From Xylaria sp. FL1777 (taxonomy: Eukaryota; Ascomycota; Sordariomycetes; Xylariales; Xylariaceae), in assembly GCA_022578965.1 (NCBI GenBank), contig MU400529.1, forward strand, positions 248,001-312,000: a DNA stretch of 64,000 nucleotides, in the 5' to 3' direction. Shown here in pieces: positions 1,999-64,000 of the stretch. How positions within the stretch are numbered: the first letter of the stretch is position 1; the number at the start of each line of letters is the position of its first letter. A model generated the notes under the pieces. It had not been told where the DNA came from. It worked only from the letters and a program-made list of their open reading frames with translations, and did not search any database. The position numbers were made by a program, and so were the translations under genes.

Positions 1999-3453
1999 AT
2001 GCCCCCGAAGAAAGGTGCCGTCGAGGAGAAGGTCCTCTTGGGCCGTCCTGGCAACAACTTGAAGGCTGGTATCGTTGGTCTCGCCAACGTTGGCAAATCC
2101 ACCCTCTTCCAGGCCATCACCAAGTGCAGCCTTGGTAATCCCGCTGTAAGCCTTGCGCTATTCTACGCGTCTGCTGCTTCTCTGACTCCGTGCGAGTAGA
2201 ATTTCCCTTACGCCACCATTGATCCCGAAGAGTCTCGTGTCATCGTACCTGACGATCGCTACGATTGGCTGTGCGAAAAATACAACCCCAAGAGTCGAGT
2301 GCCAGCTCACTTGACTGTTTATGATATTGCAGGTCTTACCAGGGGCGCTTCTACTGGTGCTGGCCTCGGCAATGCTTTCCTTTCACATATCCGTGCTGTC
2401 GATGCCATCTTCCAGGTCGTACGGTGCTTTGATGACGCTGAGATCATTCACGTCGAAGGTGACGTCAACCCTGTGAGAGATTTAGATATCATTGGAGACG
2501 AACTGCGGACAAAGGATATCGAATTTACCGAGAAGGCCATAGAGAACCAGAAAAAGAAGACGCGTGTCGGTGGCCAGAGCCTGGAAGTGAAGAAGGCCAA
2601 GGAAGAGGAGGCCATCATGGAAAAGGTCCTCAACTGGTTGATAGAGGGCAAGGATGTCCGAAAGGGCAACTGGTCTCCCAAGGAGGTACGACTGAACACT
2701 TTCTTCTATTTTTGATTTTACACCCTGCCTTTTATGATGACAAAGGGCCATAGCGCCTGATCTAATCCCAGCTCTTCGAGTGCCTCGACAATACAACGCA
2801 GAGAGCGCACTGAGATAAAAAACCTGCTCTGATTTCCTACCCACCTACTCTTTCATTTAACACCACCTAGCGAGGATGATATGTATTGACTGTGTGGACA
2901 GGTTGAGGTTATTAACACCTTGTTTTTACTCTCCGCAAAACCGGTTGTATATCTCGTTAATCTTTCCGAGAAGGATTATACGAGAAAGAAGAATAAGCAT
3001 CTGGCCAAGATTGCAGAATGGATGAAGGAAAATGCCGCAGGCGATCCCATCCTACCCATCTCGGTTTGCTTCGAAGAGCGTCTAACGCATTTTGAAACCG
3101 ACGCAGAAGCTGCTGAGGAATGTAAAAAGCTCGGAATTGAATCCGCGCTACCCAAAATTGTTACAACAATGCGGAAAGCGTTACACCTACGTAGTTTCTT
3201 TACCACCGGTACAGATGAAGTTCGACAATGGACTATCAGAGAGGGTACCAAGGCACCCCAAGCTGCTGGTGTCATTCACACGGACTTTGAGAAGACGTTT
3301 ATCCAAGCCGTAGTATACAACTACGGCGTACTGAAGGAAGTTGGCGATGAATCTGAAGTTAAAGCCAAGGGTAAAGTCATGACGAAAGGAAAAGACTATG
3401 TCGTTGAAGATGGCGATATCCTATTGATTAAGGCTGGTGCCGCCAAGGGTTAG
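1999..3453 (+). CDS. OLA1: Obg-like ATPase OLA1 (YchF family)
   Basis: P-loop ATPase of the YchF/Obg-like family, cytosolic, linked in other organisms to ribosomes, stress response and proteasome function. There are three exons: 1999-2145, 2200-2685 and 2902-3453, with introns 2146-2199 (54 bp) and 2686-2901 (216 bp), both phase 0. Spliced length is 394 residues, the same as I recall for yeast Ola1. The start MPPKKG and the block [20 protein letters not shown] lead into the P-loop GLANVGKST (G1). It also has the family's [11 protein letters not shown] switch, [10 protein letters not shown] (G3), an NLSEKD block, and a C-terminal TGS-like domain ending near [12 protein letters not shown]. An upstream in-frame ATG at 1933 exists, but the family-conserved start is 1999. 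Confidence 0.97.
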
Positions 3454-5533: not shown

Positions 5534-8500
5534 GGAGGGAGGGGAGAAGGATGAGTTTGTCGGCAACTATTTTCAATGTCTAGAGAGATTATCATAATGC
5601 ATAATGATAATACATAGCTTCTAACGTCTAGAGCCATCACTTGAAACTCATCTGTGTTTATTTCTCCCTTCGAAATCAATTCTTTGCCTCGCGAATAGCT
5701 CAGTCAGGTACGACATGACATATACGTCTAATATTACGGCTTTAACTATATTATACACTCAAGTTTTCTTCTCTATACGAGTGTAGGCCGTCCTTCAGGA
5801 CTCTGTCAAATTTCCTTTAAGCACGCCACCCTTTGCTTGACCACCCATAGTATCAGTCGCGATAAGCTCCAGCGTCCTTTCAGGGGCTCCAGTGCTCTTC
5901 CTTATGATAATTAAGGCGATCGTCGCCCTCGAGCACCTTGGTTGAATAGGATTTGACCTACTTTTGGACCCCACGAGGCTTAACAAACACGGCGCCGCAA
6001 AAAATACTACGTAGAGAAGATCATACCGCCAAGACAAAATGTAGTGTCGTTGGTGGCAGCGTAAAGCCGCCTTATGGGGGCTATACGCAGTGAGCTAAAT
6101 AAGGGGTCAACGATGCAGCTGTGTGGAGTTATTAATATACATTTTTGGTCTATCCTATGCGAACCCCCCGTGATCACTACGACGTGCCACGTAATCTACA
6201 CTAGGATAAAGTCCTCTTTTTCCCCCTCTTTTTAATATTATTGTTATTCTCTTTTTTTTTTTTTAAAAAAAAGGGGTCTTTTATCAACCTTACCTGGATT
6301 TAGATGCCTCCCCGAACGGCATGGGGAGTTATTCCGTCTGACCATAAAAGGTTGCACTACTCTCTCTACCCCTGCCAGCGCACGTTAAGCAATCCCTAAA
6401 TTCCGGGGGAATCATGCACTGACACTACAATTTTTGAAGTGCTCCGGAGTTACTTGACAACTCATTACTTGCTTTACATTGCCTCTCCCAAGTTTGATCG
6501 GCTACCTACATGTAGTCCTATAGAACGGCCGAGCAAGAATCCTACATCAGCGCCGAGCCGTGATTAAGTCACAATCCTACACTCAGTTTCAGCACATGCA
6601 TCCTCAAAGTCCTAATGTAACTACACGTAAATAAGCCCGTTTAAGTTTACTCGTTTCTACGGGTGATTCTGATTGGCTACAGAAAGCGTAAACTACAGGC
6701 CAATAGCTAACCGTATATACGACCTTTCAGTTGTTTAGACTTTCATACAACTAAATTAAGCAACCCGAGCATGTGGCCTCTGAGCTAATGCTGTGATGTT
6801 GGCTCAAGCAGGTTACAGTCAACCCTGAAAAGATTTCGGCGCTTGGGTATTGCGAACGGCTATTGTTCGCGTCCGTTTGTTTAGGCTACCATCGACCCGC
6901 CCTTGGTTGCCTACCCCTCTCTAACAACAAGCGAGAGCAGATGAAGGATGATCATACCCTGCCTAAATGTAACTGTGCCCAAGTAATGAAGGAATGCTTT
7001 ATCAGCAGCAGATTGACAGCTTGAACATGGGTGATGAAGGCTGAAACATAAACAATATGCTAGTATTGAAGTTAAAAGGCTGGGATACTTACGACCTACA
7101 TGCTGTATATTTATGGGTATCTGAGATCATTGTACCGTTCTACATAATCTAAGACTTCTAGACAATCAACTAATACTATTAAGCACCCACCTTTTGACAA
7201 CGTACTCTAATATTTTCCATCTCTATTTTCGAGCTATACAGACTTCTTCTTCTCTCATCCATTTGTCTATTCAATTTATCCATTAAGCTAAATATTCTTT
7301 TTAGGGTAAGGATTACGTGAGATGGGAAATCCTACATGTCAGAGGCTCTAATGAGGCTTGTGTAACAAAACACTTCTTCTCTTTTAGAGGTGGTCATATA
7401 ATACAAGAAACAGCAATCCTCTTTACGCCCATGAATATTTCTACTAATATCTTTTCTTTTCAACTCGTATAACTCAATATTTACCCCAACGTCTGGTTAG
7501 TCCATGTATCTATTTACTTTGCGATGCTTACCCTATTGTATTTGCTGTCAGGCTGTTTAGCACTAAGGAATAGTAGCGTGATACCTCAAATTTTAGATCC
7601 TATTTATCCCTTTTATGTTAATAGATGTAATGTATAATGTAATTCAGTATATCCATAGGATAAAGTAACTTACCATCAGTTATATCGTAGTAATCTAGAT
7701 GATTTCCTTACCTGGAGGGGGTGGCGAAAAACGATGTCGCAATGTCTCACGTCTTATAACAAGGGCTGGTGTCAGGGCTTGGAACTGAGAATTGAATCTA
7801 TTCACGATATAATAATCTGTTATGGCAGCAAAAGTTCAAGCCTCTCATCCGGGCTTGCGCCGAGCATGGTGGCTGTCCTTGAGTCTATATACAATTGGTT
7901 CGGGCTTCCTGATCTTCGGGGTCCGCCAATATGTCTCAGATTAGCGAGGGTTGTAGTACGGTCCAGGCATCTCATCGGACTGCGCGTCTGGAGATAGCAC
8001 AAGGTGTTCAGCTTGTTCAGTGCGTGTAACACCTCTATGCAGAAACTCAGTAGATAGTCACTGTAGCTTGGGAACTAAGAAAAGGGAAGGAATATAAGGT
8101 CTTGATGAAAATATCGTACGTGCTGTATTACTAACCGCTCTACGTAATCAACACACGATCAAAAACTTAGGTGTACAACGATCCTTTCCTTCACCGATTA
8201 TACGCATATGTGTGAAACACCAAGAAGAAAAAAGAAGAAGACAAAAAAAATAGGAAAGAAAGATAAACTCACACAGTTCGCGGACGAATGGTAGCGGAAT
8301 ATTCCTTTCCAAACGACACCACCGGTGGAGTGCTGGCTACCTAAGGTGACCAATCCATCAGGGGATCACATTTGACAGCAACCTCTGTGGTTGCAGTGCA
8401 GCATAGGGTTGCTTCCAAAGGTCATGCATTGTCGGAACGGAACATAAGGGGGTATACCGAGTAGAGCAAACAAATGTATACAAAAATAGAGTGATCATAA

Positions 8501-8678: not shown

Positions 8679-11518
8679 ATGACATCATCAATTCTAACGC
8701 CTATACTAAACCCTCCATCTCATGACGCCGTCATCGTTAGGCCTCTGATAAGCACCACGGCTCGTGAGCGTGAGAAGATCCTCAAAGAAGTCGAGTATAA
8801 CGTATTTGCTTTTCCTGCAGGGCTCGTCACCTGCGATTTCCTTTCCGACTCGGGCACTTCGGCAATGACTGATTTGCAATGGGCTGCATGTAAGCTTCTC
8901 TTTCCTTCAAATTATCTATTGTATCATGTTATGCGCAAGACACGCAATAGAACCAAGTCTCGGTCAGAAGAAGCTAACTATAAATTCACAGTAATTCGAG
9001 CTGACGAGAGCTACGGACGGAATTGGGGATACTACTGCCTACTAGACACCTTTCGAGACATATTTGAACGTGGAAATAGTAGGCAGCATGTATTTCATAG
9101 CATTCTTACGGGAATGGTGGATAGTGATTTCTATCAAAGAAAGCTCCTGCTGCCGTACGAGGACGGCTTCGCCAACGGAGGATCTCGTCAGCTTGAACAC
9201 CCCAATTTCTTTATCGTTCCCCAGGGCCGCTGTGCCGAGTTCCTATTATTTTCTACTCTGCGGGATATGATACCAGAGACCTCACAGAAGCCAATCGTCA
9301 TAAGCAACGGCTTCTTCGACACCACTGCAGCCCATGCTACAAGTTCAGGATTTGATATCCACACTTTCACTCAGTTCATACCGACAAAGCCGTTTATCGA
9401 AGGGTCAAAAAGCACAACAAACCCATTTATGGGAGGTCTAGATGTATCTGCGGCAGAACCCTTCATGGATAAACATCCGGGCCAAGTAAAGTTGATACTG
9501 ATCACAATCACAAACAACTGGGCTGCGGGACAGCCTGTATCGATGAAAAACATCAAAGACGCAGCCGACTTGGCGAAACGAAAAGGGGTGCCCCTATTTT
9601 TCGATGCCTGTCGATTCGCGGAGAACTCTTGGTTCGTTCAAAACTCGGAAACCGGCTACGCCAACAAAGAAATCCCTGAAATTATCCAGGAAATGTTTTC
9701 GTTCGTAGATGGGTTTACTATCAGTTTAAAGAAAGACGGCCTCTCGAACATGGGTGGCGTCTTATGTTTTCGGGACAAGGCACTATTTGCCCAACAATAC
9801 CAAGGTATAGGACATCGCCTCAAACAGCGGCAAATATTGTGCTATGGGAACGACTCCTACGGAGCAAGTAAGTTGATCTAAATCTCTGAGCAAGGACAGA
9901 CCCTTTCGACACCAATTTAAATGACCGCTCGGGACTGACAAGAATCGTAGTGAGCGGTCGCGATCTAATGGCAGCTGTTGCCGGTCTATACGAAGTAACG
10001 AAAGAGACTTATCTTAAAAATCGTATTTCTCAAGTTCGATCTTTTGCCCGAAAGCTCCATGCCAGTCATATACCGGTTTTTTTACCCACGGGGGGTCATG
10101 CAGTGTACCTTGATATGGACCGATTTTTCCACGGTTGTGATAGGGAACTCGGCGACTTTCCCTCAGTAGGCTTCACGTTAGAGCTCCTTAAAGACTATGG
10201 AATCCGATCATTTGAAGCCGGACCATTCGGATGGGAATGGGATAGAAAACCCCCCGAGGAGCGTAAGCAAGTGCCGAATCTAGTGCGATTTGCTGTACCG
10301 CGACAGGTATTTTCAGACCAGCACATCGACTACACGGTTGCCGCTATCAAAGATCTTCACAATCGCCGGCATACGTTACCGAATGTAGAAATCACCAGAG
10401 GCAAGGATATGCTTCTTCGACATTTCTCATGTGCGATGAGACCAGTCCCTGTTGATCCCGCCGTAACAGGCACGTACCTTAGTGAAGCTAGGCGGCAACT
10501 TTCCCATCTCTCTAGAGCTATTGACCAAGATGAGGCGATGAAAGAGCAACTGCTCGAAGCCTTTGAATTAGCAGCCGGTGAATGGGGTCGGGCATTAATC
10601 CCACGAGCTACAGATTCAGAGTACAGGGTTTCTTCGGATAACCACTCGCTCTTTAAGTATTCAGTTACATTGGATCAAGTAACAAGTGAAGCCAAGTTAC
10701 AATTTCTGATCGGGGCCGAACCAGAAAATAGCACTTTGACGCACCTTCAAGATGGCGCTGTGCAGCTGAATGCTACAATAGCTTCACTTGAACCGTTCGA
10801 ACTAGTCCAGGATGTCTTCTTACCAAGAACATCTGAAGGGGCTGCCGCTGCGTTGTATAGCTGTAGGATGGGGAAAACTGGCGCTGAGTGGAAAATACAC
10901 ATCAAGCCCTGGGCATCTGGGACCACCAATACCTTGTCCGTCACCCGTATAGCATTTGAACGTCTAGGTATGACTGCCGAATGGGGTCTCGTAGAGAGGA
11001 CTATGACGTCTACAGACTCGGTTGCCTACATTTCCCTAGACCTATCTACCGTTCCAGAAGACGCCTGCGTTGAGGTGTACATTGCCCACAAAGCTACATC
11101 CGCATCTGATATCGCGCGAAAGCATGAGGCAATATGTCCTCGTACGAGCGCGTTTGAGATCCAACGGTTCTGCGAGATCATAGCTGGGGGCTCATTCGGC
11201 CCCTATATGACAGAACCCCTCTTGTCATGTTTTGTCTTTGCAAACAAGGCAAGAAGCCAACCGATAGGAACGGTGTGTTTTCCTATTGAATCCTACGCCG
11301 GGAACGACAGTGAAGTTCAGGAACGCATCGAAAAATACATGCTGGCGAAATCGCTGCCACCCCTATACAGAGAACGCTACAGGACGATTGTTAGCGCGGT
11401 GCAACGTAGGCCGCTAGCCCAAAAATCTGGACTACACAGTTGGGTGAGTTTGACGCAGTCCTCGAAAGGAGCACTTTCAAACACCTTTTATCTATCACCC
11501 GATATTCCATGGGAATAA
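8679..11518 (+). CDS. Bifunctional tryptophanase-like PLP lyase fused to DMATS/ABBA-type indole prenyltransferase
   Basis: Three exons: 8679-8889, 8992-9867 and 9951-11518 (introns 102 and 83 bp, GT-AG), spliced to 884 residues. Residues about 30-488 are a beta-eliminating lyase (PF01212 type). Visible landmarks are SDSGTSAMTDLQWAALIRAD around the first splice site, DESYG (Tyr78), QGR (148-150), NGFFDTTAAH, TNNWAAGQPVSM, FFDACRFAEN (PLP-ring Asp275) and SLKKDG with the expected Schiff-base Lys318. SFEAG (450-453) has Ala where tyrosine phenol-lyase has Arg, so it is tryptophanase-like. Residues about 523-884 match the DMATS/ABBA prenyltransferase family: FKYSVTLDQ, WKIHIKP (676-682), YISLDL, VEVYIAH (736-742), GTVCFPIESYAGNDSEV, HSWVSL and a terminal NTFYLSP strand. 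Inferred chemistry is tryptophan to indole, then prenylated indole. The lyase half is firm; the prenyltransferase half rests on motif recall. Confidence 0.88.
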
Positions 11519-12022
11519 ACGCATGTGGCAGGCAAACGACTGCTAGATCTGGATAGGGGGATGCACTGGATATCGCAAGGCAGACCCCTCATTCCTCTAA
11601 CAGTCTGGGACCAAGGATTGTTCCAATCGAGCCAACCTGTATACGATCTGTACTATGGTTATATTAATTGATATAACTATACATGGCAGCCGTACTAATT
11701 TATATTCTCTTGCAAGGAGTCGTCGTAGAACGGCAAAGTTCAATTGGTCAGGCCCAGTTTGTATTATAGCATGCTGTTGAGACGGGACAATTTGCAAACT
11801 AATTGGTTTATTTTAAATAGTATATCTTAGACGTATAGGAAATCAGGTTTGACATAATATTTGTAGAACGCTTATATACGGACAAGCCAATCGGCTAGTG
11901 ACTCATTGAGAATGACGCCAAGCATCCAGTTGCGGTGAATTTATAGGCTACGGCGCCGTATTAGTATATGACTTCCAGCAGATTATTACTAAAACCATCT
12001 TTACATCTTCTACTTTTTCAGC
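11519..12022. other. Intergenic between fusion gene and methyltransferase
   Basis: 504 bp, AT-leaning, no gene seen. It should hold the 3' end of the fusion transcript and the promoter of the methyltransferase, whose ATG follows CTACTTTTTCAGC. Confidence 0.45.
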
Positions 12023-12808
12023 ATGGCTCAATCAAAAACTTCAGATCCGCTCTTCAACTCCATCCGCTACCTCCCCACAAACGAAGCCTATGACAGATGG
12101 GCCGAAGTTTACGATAGCGATGGCAACTTCCTGCAGGCGCTGGACGATCTCGAGCTCAAGACGCTCTTCCCACGGTTTCTGACATCGATCAAGTCGCCCA
12201 AGCCCTGGCGTGTAGTCGACTTGGGCTGCGGCACGGGTCGCAACACGGCGCTTCTTCTCGGGATCCCTGAAAGCGAGATCATTGCTCTCGATGCGAGCAA
12301 AGGCATGTTAGAAGTAGCGAAGACTCGGCTCGTTAACTCGAATTCAGCCTCTGAGTCCAGTCTTCGCTTCGATATTTTCGATATGCTAGCCACATCAGCA
12401 CCTCCAGCGTCCGTGGAGCCTCACACCGCAGACGCCATAATTAGCACGCTGGTCGTTGAGCACATTCCGTTGCCTAGTTTTTTCATGCACATATCACAAC
12501 TTCTTCGCCCTGGTGGAGTGCTTCTTCTGACCAATATGCACTCTCACATGGGTGGTATCTCACAAGCTGGGTTTGTGGACAAGACTACGGGGGAGAAGAT
12601 CCGGCCAACGAGCCACGCACACACTGTTGAAGACGTGATACTCGAGGCTCGTAAATGCGGGCTGGAAGTTGAGGCTGACGAGGAAGGGACAGGTATTTTG
12701 GAGAGGGCTGTTAGTAAAGATATGATTGAGAAGCTGGGACTGAGAAGTGAGAAGTGGGTTGGCATCACATGTTGGTTTGGCGGTATATTTCGTAAAGTAG
12801 ATCTATGA
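12023..12808 (+). CDS. Class I SAM-dependent methyltransferase
   Basis: A single-exon gene of 261 residues. The Rossmann-type methyltransferase fold is clear: motif I VVDLGCGTGRN (64-74), the acidic end of strand 2 at ALDAS (Asp90), the post-motif strand IISTLVVEHI (about 129-138) and LLRPGG (150-155). The N-terminal EAYDRWAEVYDS is common in small-molecule methyltransferases. The C-terminal part (NMHSHMGGISQAGFV onward) would shape the acceptor site. The substrate cannot be read from sequence. It lies 504 bp downstream of the lyase-prenyltransferase fusion on the same strand, so methylation of a prenylated indole is a reasonable inference, not a demonstrated one. Confidence 0.88.
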   Translation: MAQSKTSDPLFNSIRYLPTNEAYDRWAEVYDSDGNFLQALDDLELKTLFPRFLTSIKSPKPWRVVDLGCGTGRNTALLLGIPESEIIALDASKGMLEVAKTRLVNSNSASESSLRFDIFDMLATSAPPASVEPHTADAIISTLVVEHIPLPSFFMHISQLLRPGGVLLLTNMHSHMGGISQAGFVDKTTGEKIRPTSHAHTVEDVILEARKCGLEVEADEEGTGILERAVSKDMIEKLGLRSEKWVGITCWFGGIFRKVDL

Positions 12809-13563: not shown

Positions 13564-15225
13564 CTAGATGAAAGGGGTGTTAAAAAAGACGACTTGTACG
13601 GTGATATCATCCCGTATATGTCGGGCATTTCCGTTGTTGAAGGCTAGCTGACTTGCTATCATACCACGGTATTTCCCCCCGAGCACGTTGCGGATCAAGT
13701 GGACCGCGGCGTTGTCATCCTCAACAGTTGTCCTCGCCTCCACGAATGACAACGGCATTCCCGCTCTGATTAGGCTAAAATTGAATGGTGGATAATCAGG
13801 CATTACCATGCTGACCTCGCTATCTGCTTCTTCGCTTGTAAATCCCCATGCGCTTCTGCCGCTGTACTCGATTGCGTTAAGATCCATGTCGTCAACATTA
13901 GTGTCGTCAGAATCCACGTTGTCAGGATTCATTTCATCAGGATCCGCGTTGTCAGGATTCATTTCGTTAGGATCCACGTTGTCAGGATTCATTTCATCAG
14001 GATCCGCGTTGTCACGGTCTTCGTTGTCATCTGATGCTCCGTCTGTACCAAATGTAGGGGGAACGTCGATATCACCTGGACTGCTTATCTCGCGTGGATG
14101 GAATGTTTTCATTGTTTTGTATTCGTCGGGTGGGCCTTCTTCTATGTAACTAGAAGATTCGTTGAATAGGTTCATACCCGTAGGCTTCAGCTCAGGCTCA
14201 TACTTAACGGCGGACTCCTTCGTGCGCGTGCGAAACTTCAACCAGCTTACTACAAGCTTGGCCGCTTGCCTGGTGGTGATTCTTTCCCAAAACCCGTCTG
14301 ATGCCATAATCATGAAAGATATCCTAGTAGGATCGATATTAGTAGAAGTTACCTTTGGCCCAGCACCCACGTATGGTGGCGTTCGTAGTGAGTTGGCTGT
14401 CCCTCCTCTCATACCAAAGTTGTTGCCTATATAGGATGCCAATGGCAGTGACCATTTGTAGGTTCCATCGCCGAAAGCCCGTGTGACCTCGAGGCCATAT
14501 AATCGCCCGTTTCTGATCATATTCGGTTCATAGGGGTGCTCCTGACCAAGCCTAAGAACTTCCGATTGGTTGTAACCGGTTTGGTCTTCCGATAGATGTT
14601 CCACGGACCATTCTCCGGGGTTCTCTTCTTCTGATACTAATACTGCCCTCGAATTACCAGTGCACGCAACATGTAGATTCCTTGTTCCAGGATCATAGAT
14701 GGATAGCAGTGCACATGAACCAACGAAACCAAGTGCAAGTCTCTTCACCTTGTCTTGCGAGGGCATGTTGCTCGTCACTGTAGTTTTGGCCGACTTGACG
14801 AGACAATCATCGAGCTCCATGAAACCCCTCATGATAGCTGCTCGAACTAGCATGTCCGGCACGGAGTCTTGTCCCTCGTACTCGACCAGATTGGATCGCA
14901 CAAAACGCAAAAGTTGTTTCTCTAGCACGTCTGCCGTTTCCCAGCCACCATGCCCGTCAAAAATACCCCATGTTATCCATTCACTTTTGCTCTTCCACGG
15001 TGGAGGGAATCGCCCATGAATGAACCGATCCTGTGTCGGGTCATTCGAGGCTACTCGAGTGCCGTCATACCTGCAGACGCCTGGGATATCGTCGACTGTG
15101 AAACAATAGGCCTCTTCCGATATGATACGCGTGACCTCGTCCTCATCGGGGCCCGGCCCAACGACTAATTTGTCGGTCGGTGTCTCGTCGAGAAGCGGTA
15201 CTTCAGACGAAAGTTTTGGTGGCAT
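13564..15225 (-). CDS. PP2C-family Ser/Thr phosphatase, PDP/Ptc5-like, with acidic repeat insertion
   Basis: A single exon of 553 residues. Metal-dependent PP2C motifs appear in order: NDPTQDRF (Asp66), GIFDGHGG (Asp90), VACTGNSRAVL (187-195), VTRAFGDG, MASDGFWERIT (Asp310) and RDDITVQVVFF (Asp539). The opening GVCRYDGTRVASNDP resembles pyruvate dehydrogenase phosphatase relatives such as Ptc5, but I see no mitochondrial presequence. Two usual acidic residues are changed: Gln65 stands where EDR-type motifs have Glu, and Asn191 where GDSRA has Asp. Main metal ligands remain, so activity is possible. Between the SDG and RDD motifs lies an insertion of about 180 residues with 10-residue repeats rich in Asn, Pro, Asp and Glu (about 405-445). 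Target unknown. Confidence 0.9.
   Translation of the reverse strand: MPPKLSSEVPLLDETPTDKLVVGPGPDEDEVTRIISEEAYCFTVDDIPGVCRYDGTRVASNDPTQDRFIHGRFPPPWKSKSEWITWGIFDGHGGWETADVLEKQLLRFVRSNLVEYEGQDSVPDMLVRAAIMRGFMELDDCLVKSAKTTVTSNMPSQDKVKRLALGFVGSCALLSIYDPGTRNLHVACTGNSRAVLVSEEENPGEWSVEHLSEDQTGYNQSEVLRLGQEHPYEPNMIRNGRLYGLEVTRAFGDGTYKWSLPLASYIGNNFGMRGGTANSLRTPPYVGAGPKVTSTNIDPTRISFMIMASDGFWERITTRQAAKLVVSWLKFRTRTKESAVKYEPELKPTGMNLFNESSSYIEEGPPDEYKTMKTFHPREISSPGDIDVPPTFGTDGASDDNEDRDNADPDEMNPDNVDPNEMNPDNADPDEMNPDNVDSDDTNVDDMDLNAIEYSGRSAWGFTSEEADSEVSMVMPDYPPFNFSLIRAGMPLSFVEARTTVEDDNAAVHLIRNVLGGKYRGMIASQLAFNNGNARHIRDDITVQVVFFNTPFI
13921..14010 (-). repeat. 30-bp in-frame tandem repeat within the PP2C gene
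   Basis: Three 30-bp units (13921-13950, 13951-13980, 13981-14010), with a partial unit just before at 13901-13920. The first and third units are identical; the middle one differs at a few bases. Each encodes a 10-residue block with the pattern D-N-x-D-P-x-E-M-N-P. Being a multiple of three, copy-number change would keep the frame. Confidence 0.92.
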
Positions 15226-15909
15226 AGTATGAGCGAAGGGAGAGGATTTTTCTCCTTTGAAGGTACGTGTAGGATCGCTGGTTTAAGATAGTTGTCTTTC
15301 AACCATGAAACTTAGGATCAACCATGATTTTGAAATGGACTTGAATTAAATGCTTACCTGGATACTGTGTCGCTCCCACGGCAGCACAAGATAATGTTGG
15401 CTTTCCAAGACTTGACTTGACTTGACTTGTCTATTTGGATTTATTGATACAGTCGCCGGTTGGCATCTTTATCTATGATTGATTGGAAGAAATAGTTGTT
15501 GAGTCCAATACAGTGACCGAAGGCCGGATTGCAACTGGAAGTTTCTATAGTATTTCGCAACCCACTCATACATGCTTCGCCCTCCCTGCTTCATTCTAAG
15601 GAGCGATGAACTCGATTTGGAAGGAAACTCCTACCATGAGAAGGTACATAAGTAGATGATTACTAGACTGATATACTTTAGTTGGTATTGCCTTCTGTTA
15701 ATAGAAGTGGACTATTACTACAACAAACGTTATTCAGGAGATTTGGCCAATAGACAAACTTGTTTGATAACCTCTTTCCTCGAAATAAGCTAAGAACAGT
15801 CTAATATATTAGCAGGTAGTCAATAATGATGTGGGGGTGGGAAGCCATGTGTCCTAGGGAACTATGGCGGAAGCATGTATGCATAGCGAGGGGGGAAAGA
15901 GTTGGGTAT
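15226..15909. other. PP2C 5' flank up to the edge of the AT-rich block
   Basis: About 680 bp of ordinary composition. It holds the promoter side of the PP2C gene and a short run of GACTT units at about 15411-15429. A short minus-strand open frame that crosses 15,910 is not a gene: its beginning lies inside the end of repeat P. Confidence 0.45.
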
Positions 15910-63900: not shown

Positions 63901-64000
63901 TTACTTTTATTTAAAACTAAATAGCTTTTTTTGCTTTTAGTTTAAACTATTTAATACTTAATAAAAACTTTAAAACTACTAAAAAGCAAAAAACATTATT
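60966..64000. mobile_element. S (right copy), inverted, continues beyond the window
   Basis: Reverse complement of about 51,212-54,243, starting directly at the outer edge of the P2 terminal repeat. At least 3.0 kb. A decayed coding-like reading runs left to right from about 61,000 with RIP-type stops. Product unknown. Confidence 0.75.

Follow-up and report, generated by a model that had tools for sequence, protein, structure and literature searches.

A fungal tryptophanase-type lyase fused to a probably inert prenyltransferase-derived domain in Xylaria sp. FL1777

Can a single ascomycete protein lead from tryptophan to prenylindole? This question is raised by a gene in the window analyzed here (the whole stretch of 64,000 nucleotides of Xylaria sp. 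FL1777 DNA), in which a tryptophanase-type lyase is joined to a domain related to DMATS-type indole prenyltransferases (PT). The original prediction read the gene as a compact two-step route in which indole might be handed over from one half to the other. Comparison with homologs points to a different answer: FL1777 carries one representative of a lyase-PT fusion family that is widespread in fungi; in this copy, the lyase should work, the PT domain is probably inert, and plain indole is the most likely product. On balance, we regard this reading as likely.

Gene model and homology of the two halves

A scan of GT-AG combinations identifies a single join that yields an uninterrupted frame of 884 amino acids (881 with one alternative acceptor), in agreement with the spliced frame originally predicted (Table 1). 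This frame is 100% identical over 100% of its length to the public protein P0001 from Xylaria sp. FL1777 (Xylariaceae), which is named only “beta-eliminating lyase”. The junction between the two halves lies inside exon 3 and contains no stop. The sequence thus rules out two genes divided by a stop, and a reading as two separate genes is rejected given the stop-free exon 3 and the shared architecture in relatives. The second intron looks conserved in place: among the 64 relatives that lack the lyase N-terminus, 32 start at the equivalents of residues 360–385, just past this intron. In the FL1777 genome (58.7 Mb, 588 contigs), the only match to the close homolog P0002 is the 8679–11518 locus, and a search of PHROGs gave no match.

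Table 1. Features of the lyase-PT gene and its neighbors (window coordinates)
Feature	Position	Strand	Remarks
Exon 1	8679..8889	+	start codon (ATG) at 8679; encodes residues 1-70 plus part of 71
Intron 1	8890..8991	+	GT-AG, 102 nt
Exon 2	8992..9867	+	contains QGR (148-150), D180, D275, R278, PLP lysine K318 (9732-9734), Y360
Intron 2	9868..9950	+	GT-AG, 83 nt; interrupts the lyase coding region; apparently conserved in position
Exon 3	9951..11518	+	end of lyase, junction and entire PT-like domain; one open frame, stop 11516-11518
Tryptophanase-type lyase domain	8718..10447	+	residues 14-528, interrupted by the introns; PRK13238 469.9 bits, PDB 8sl7 1.9e-131
DMATS-type PT-derived domain	10457..11506	+	residues 532-881; substituted active site; hhalign E 1.2e-62, PDB CymD 2.9e-16
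YchF-type GTPase	2200-3450		neighbor
Methyltransferase	11993-12805		neighbor
PP2C phosphatase	13567-15282		neighbor

Apart from the neighbors listed in Table 1, the larger frames scanned in the 20 kb that precede the window include Tim44, S11 and NADAR, and a P450 is located about 22 kb from the gene; no secondary-metabolite cluster is obvious among the frames scanned. On the other side, an AT-rich island of about 53 kb (10–21% GC) extends from about 16100 to the end of the window at 64000 and about 5 kb beyond (positions 1 to ~5000 of the adjoining stretch L006). Its part within the window has strong indices of repeat-induced point mutation (RIP; product 1.45–1.51, substrate 0.59–0.66, composite +0.85), and no stop-to-stop frame of at least 150 amino acids is found between 15.3 and 64 kb.

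The lyase half of FL1777 passes the cut-off of the NCBIfam tryptophanase model PRK13238 (285 bits), with a score similar to those of the family members P0015 and P0049 (472.4 and 468.7 bits), as well as that of PF01212 (159.9 bits, cut-off 27), and its best structure match, over the full length, is the tryptophanase 8sl7. The family residue is present at all 11 chosen active-site positions (Y78, Q148, G149, R150, D180, D275, R278, K318, Y360, R475 and H520), and K318, D275, Y78 and QGR sit at the positions originally predicted; the lyase appears intact. The roles of these positions are assigned by E. coli TnaA numbering, in which D180 and H520 correspond to residues by which tryptophanase differs from tyrosine phenol-lyase. 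The TnaA equivalog model TIGR02617 assigns FL1777 266.6 bits, below its cut-off of 825.8, which is also missed by the other fusions scanned (five from fungi or a liverwort and one from bacteria), and the tyrosine phenol-lyase equivalog assigns 262.5 bits, below its cut-off of 720.7. Given that the two scores are nearly equal and both far under the respective cut-offs, we infer the tryptophan specificity of the FL1777 lyase from homology and the presumed residue roles. FL1777 keeps 169 of the 184 conserved lyase columns (0.92), close relatives P0002–P0006 keep 0.93–0.94 and the median of members with an intact PT site is 0.99, which suggests that the lyase half is also somewhat relaxed in this clade.

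Among the other 75 fusions, ten (P0060, P0061, P0064, P0065, P0072, P0073, P0074, P0081, P0083 and P0085; eight of them named Colletotrichum) have no histidine at position 520, with valine in nine and leucine in one. This substitution may alter the substrate choice of the lyase.

A search of PDB started with the PRENYLTRANSFERASE half alone identifies, after CymD, 6zrx (5.7e-14) and PriB (1.1e-10). An hhalign comparison of the PT half with a profile of 15 prenyltransferases from bacteria, metagenomes, fungi and a liverwort (alignment A3) covers 341 columns with a probability of 100 and 26% identity. As judged from these alignments, the whole domain shares common ancestry with bacterial-type DMATS indole prenyltransferases. 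The anticipated match to PF11991 materialized in relatives, namely P0002 (3.9e-07), P0015 (1e-09) and P0049 (4.3e-13), whereas the FL1777 protein has none at E<=1 even though P0002 is 70% identical to it. Model TIGR03429 assigns 43.5 bits to FL1777, below the cut-off of 163.85, which P0015 (95.6 bits), P0049 (109.7 bits) and the bacterial fusion do not reach either. For the PT domain of P0015, an intact member, the best PDB match is 6zrx (1.7e-36), and 7w8u, 6-dimethylallyltryptophan synthase, follows with 7e-29; beyond such bacterial-type chains, the only DMATS chain at E<=1 is the fungal 9iia (GliD1; 0.22). Together with the two GT-AG introns, the homology of both halves bears out the prediction that an ascomycete gene with introns encodes a tryptophanase-type lyase and a DMATS-type domain as one fusion.

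The PT-like domain was predicted to be complete, which is correct with respect to its length; the active site is another matter. In A3, the equivalents of E598, E617, K677, Y679, K737 and Y739 are invariant, and those of R613 and R735 nearly so. At positions 598, 613, 617, 677, 679, 735, 737 and 739, FL1777 has K, Q, G, K, H, C, E and Y, respectively, that is, it keeps two of these eight core residues and carries the substitutions E598K (10655-10657), R613Q, E617G, Y679H, R735C and K737E. The consensus residue is kept among the 75 other fusions in 73 (E598), 69 (R613), 73 (E617), 71 (K677), 71 (Y679), 62 (R735), 66 (K737) and 72 (Y739) proteins. Of 28 bacterial fusions, 27 have all eight of these residues and one has aspartate for glutamate at the third position. 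A glutamate occupies the place of Lys598 in 73/75 other fusions, 15/15 A3 sequences and 28/28 bacterial fusions. In TleC, Glu106 is reported to be catalytic and Arg119, Lys187, Arg248 and Arg378 to be diphosphate-binding (PMC4786772). Mapped by hand from motif and spacing, without superposition, Glu106, Arg119, Lys187 and Arg248 correspond to positions 598, 613, 677 and 735, and the three mapped diphosphate-binding residues are Q613, K677 and C735 in FL1777, i.e., one of the three is kept. Since the base and the phosphate contacts are both lost, prenyl transfer by FL1777 is improbable. The domain retains K677, Y739, Y811, R849 and Y876, as well as 25 of the 31 conserved columns outside the core, or 27 of 39 altogether, the latter value being low partly by construction given that eight of the 39 columns define an intact site.

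Fungal fusions and their bacterial counterparts

The fungal lyase-PT fusion family includes at least 76 proteins, FL1777 among them, in the 120 matches listed. All have the lyase at the N-terminus and the PT-derived domain at the C-terminus within one frame, an order that FL1777 shares, and the at least 75 further fused proteins among these matches rule out a fusion unique to FL1777. By sequence, the fusion is widespread in fungi. The alignment used here (A2) contains 76 of the 120 proteins, omitting P0038, P0068, P0076–P0080, P0082, P0084 and all after P0085; the omitted proteins are mostly lyase-only or partial, and at least P0080, P0089, P0101 and P0118 among them have both Pfam labels.

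The original prediction knew of no described fungal example, and no description of the fusion was found in searches of open-access papers, a scope outside which most subscription journals lie, although both Pfam domains are annotated on many public proteins. PMC8537960 reports tryptophanase genes in 16 fungi, along with two transfers into fungi; its main text contains no mention of prenyl, fusion or domain. PMC3227686 does not mention tryptophanase, lyase, Podospora, fusion or anything fused or bifunctional.

In a PT tree without FL1777, P0009, seven rows on long branches and the majority of the bacterial rows, the fungal fusions and the standalone fungal and liverwort PTs form one clade against the 16 bacterial rows retained (100/100). 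The standalone PTs of Daldinia and of Penicillium/Aspergillus nest within the fusions, a pattern that loss of the lyase in these lineages would produce. The basidiomycete Mycena pura also has a fusion (P0075); in the PT trees it is paired with P0060, a fusion from Colletotrichum. In an assembly of the liverwort Riccia sorocarpa, a 31.9 Mb contig carries a lyase-PT fusion, and a 52.3 Mb contig carries a lyase and a PT as separate proteins; these proteins (P0049, P0078 and P0177) are placed among the fungal ones in trees, which suggests a possible transfer of the genes from a fungus.

The pairing of tryptophanase and indole PT genes is already known in actinomycetes: PMC3617294 describes Type A clusters in which an iptA-type tryptophan 6-prenyltransferase is paired with tryptophanase, and, for Streptomyces, proposes a pathway in which tryptophan is prenylated first and elimination comes after. 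One genome scan agrees with this pairing, as stated in the original prediction. A tryptophanase match is present in the flanks of 18 of the 45 bacterial PT loci, a lower bound given that several loci have flanks shorter than 6 kb, and in 15 of the 18 linked loci no more than about 200 bases separate its start from the end of the PT match before it. The genes are not always separate, however. In Micromonospora sp. HM5-17 (L023:5797-8553), PT and tryptophanase share one frame, whereas in the related loci L028, L035 and L041 a stop separates the two genes. Among the 120 matches listed to the HM5-17 protein, 28, lying between P0193 and P0242, are fusions, the named ones from Micromonospora and Streptomyces (19 named Streptomyces), and in all 28 the PT comes first and the lyase second. 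Two further arrangements were noticed: P0188, a bacterial-type protein, has a DMATS domain joined to a PF14518 domain, and in Calothrix sp. PCC 7103 the PT match lies in two pieces (L034:6040-6717 and 7791-8114) and is apparently interrupted.

The lyases of the PT-linked bacterial loci are 31–35% identical to the lyase of P0015 and group separately from the fungal lyases, in a clade of their own (100), in a tree that includes 26 of the 76 fusions and 20 lyase-only proteins. Grouping of the fungal fusion lyases with the linked bacterial ones is disfavored (p-AU 0.033) in a tree built from 14 fusions of fungal or liverwort origin, 11 lyase-only proteins, 17 of the 18 linked bacterial lyases (all but L008), five of the 28 bacterial fusions and seven further bacterial lyases. 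The idea that the fungal fusion descends from the gene pair of actinomycetes was rejected given the separate lyase clades and the reverse order, although p-AU 0.033 is only moderate. Coupling of PT and lyase seems to have at least two origins, with the domains in opposite order. This provides the strongest indication that the two activities are functionally connected.

Repeated loss and tempo of change in the PT half

Retention of the eight core residues varies across the 76 fusions: 54 have all eight, 12 have seven, six have five or six, and four have four or fewer. Those with all eight include the Podospora anserina protein P0063 (PODANS_4_1090), although the region around Y78 is missing from its gene model. 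The last group consists of FL1777, P0009 from Astrocystis sublimbata, P0026 from Xylaria sp. CBS 124048 and P0019 from Xylaria palmicola; the latter three keep one, two and four core residues, respectively, with TIGR03429 scores of 45, 56.7 and 44 bits and all 11 lyase residues in place. The nearest relative of FL1777, P0038 from Xylaria sp. FL0043, shares 83% identity with it across the lyase; its gene model ends about 40–50 residues beyond, with the PT domain absent, and the short tail, judged by eye, resembles a PT remnant.

On a lyase-only tree, loss of the PT core requires four changes, and a smaller lyase tree with 33 of the 76 fusions also gives four across the 5–95% range of bootstrap trees; in both, four or fewer core residues are scored as dead, members with five or six are unscored and the truncated P0038 is counted as dead. 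A single clade of the five affected rows is rejected on the smaller tree (p-AU 0.0018). K737 is lost in all eight sampled fusions of the FL1777 clade (P0001–P0006, P0009 and P0025), so that weakening of the PT might have started once, in the ancestor of the clade.

The overall rate of change in the PT half is ordinary. In excess PT divergence given lyase divergence, FL1777 ranks 41 of 67 (nine of the 76 A2 rows were removed by a length filter), and none of the Tajima relative-rate tests reaches 3.84 (largest chi-square 3.68). The end branch of FL1777 in the PT tree has 0.38 changes per column, and in a neutral simulation of 130 amino-acid changes, which ignores indels, the frame stays open in 4 of 3000 runs. 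The few open frames in the simulation, combined with the ordinary rate, suggest that the fold was under selection for most of the branch; a PT half that simply decayed neutrally along the whole branch is not favored. Given a fold probably held for most of its history and a domain that is still open and full length, either PT activity disappeared recently or the domain is retained for something else, e.g., a structural role.

Likely function and comparison with known systems

Members of the family with intact sites look bifunctional. By analogy, tryptophan would be prenylated and then undergo beta-elimination to yield prenylindole, pyruvate and ammonia, or the two steps would occur in the reverse order. 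The handover of indole that was originally envisaged presupposes that the lyase acts first, contrary to the order in the Streptomyces precedent (PMC3617294). The two-step conversion of tryptophan to prenylindole is plausible for most of the family and unlikely for FL1777, where the PT site is lost. In FL1777, the kept active-site residues suggest a lyase that still works, a PT domain without its catalytic glutamate and with most of the diphosphate-binding residues gone is probably inert, and the product would most likely be plain indole, not prenylindole. This reading is favored by the difference between the lyase (11/11) and the PT core (2/8), the repetition of the losses, the truncated sister model and the bacterial coupling; the ordinary PT rate, the constraint on the frame, the variability of R735 and K737 in relatives and the lyase column value of 0.92 count against it. 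A broader scenario, in which fungi and actinomycetes independently fused tryptophanase and PT in opposite orders as prenylindole synthases, and Xylariaceae switched off the prenyl half at least four times while keeping the lyase, thereby toggling between prenylindole and volatile indole, is put forward tentatively, with a chance that falls somewhat short of even.

Of the other readings, a repurposed pseudo-enzyme, in which the PT domain would serve the lyase as an oligomerization, binding or regulatory module without prenyl transfer, appears unlikely. It is compatible with a frame that stays open and an overall rate that stays normal although the active site is lost, and with the same loss in three other full-length members; however, the FL0043 model keeps the lyase without the domain, which seems dispensable there, and recent loss accounts for the data equally well. 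That both halves are active and turn tryptophan into prenylindole is very doubtful: the homologous domain is full length, its frame was constrained over most of the branch and five of its PT residues, from K677 to Y876, are retained, but lysine replaces the nearly universal catalytic glutamate, five further core residues are changed and PF11991 finds no match.

The lyase could also act mainly on another amino acid, i.e., tyrosine, cysteine or only prenylated tryptophan, a possibility suggested by the near-equal equivalog scores and by the missing His520 in ten other fusions. We consider it rather improbable, given that the model passed by FL1777 and its best structure match are both named tryptophanase, and that D180 and H520, which match tryptophanase rather than tyrosine phenol-lyase, are kept. 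Finally, the whole gene might be an early pseudogene without function, given that it ends about 4.5 kb from the RIP-marked island, the PT active site is lost, the sister gene model is truncated and the lyase columns are below the median of intact members. Against this stand the absence of a RIP signature in the gene itself (composite −0.18 to −0.87), the conservation of all chosen lyase residues, and the intact splice sites and frame, which make such a fate very unlikely.

If functional, the fusions predict prenylindoles from many ascomycetes and provide a genetic route to fungal indole, and the intact, half-dead and split enzymes represent a natural series in which to test channelling of a volatile intermediate by fusion.

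With respect to known systems, FL1777 resembles tryptophanase (PRK13238, 8sl7) in the full-length match and the retention of the chosen PLP and catalytic residues, and differs in the additional C-terminal PT-derived domain. Fungal DMATS such as FgaPT2 (PF11991) belong to the same superfamily and share the core motifs of intact fusion members, whereas FL1777 has no PF11991 match and the P0015 domain matches bacterial-type chains. The bacterial PT-tryptophanase fusions (P0193, P0208, P0219 and others) likewise hold the two domains in one protein, but, unlike FL1777, in the reverse order and with the PT core residues kept. The actinomycete Type A clusters (PMC3617294) pair the same two enzyme families for prenylindole chemistry, and the PT domain of the fungal fusion is of the bacterial type, as indicated by the match of P0015 to 6zrx; they differ in having separate genes, PT first, and a lyase of a separate clade, and the PT site of FL1777 is substituted.
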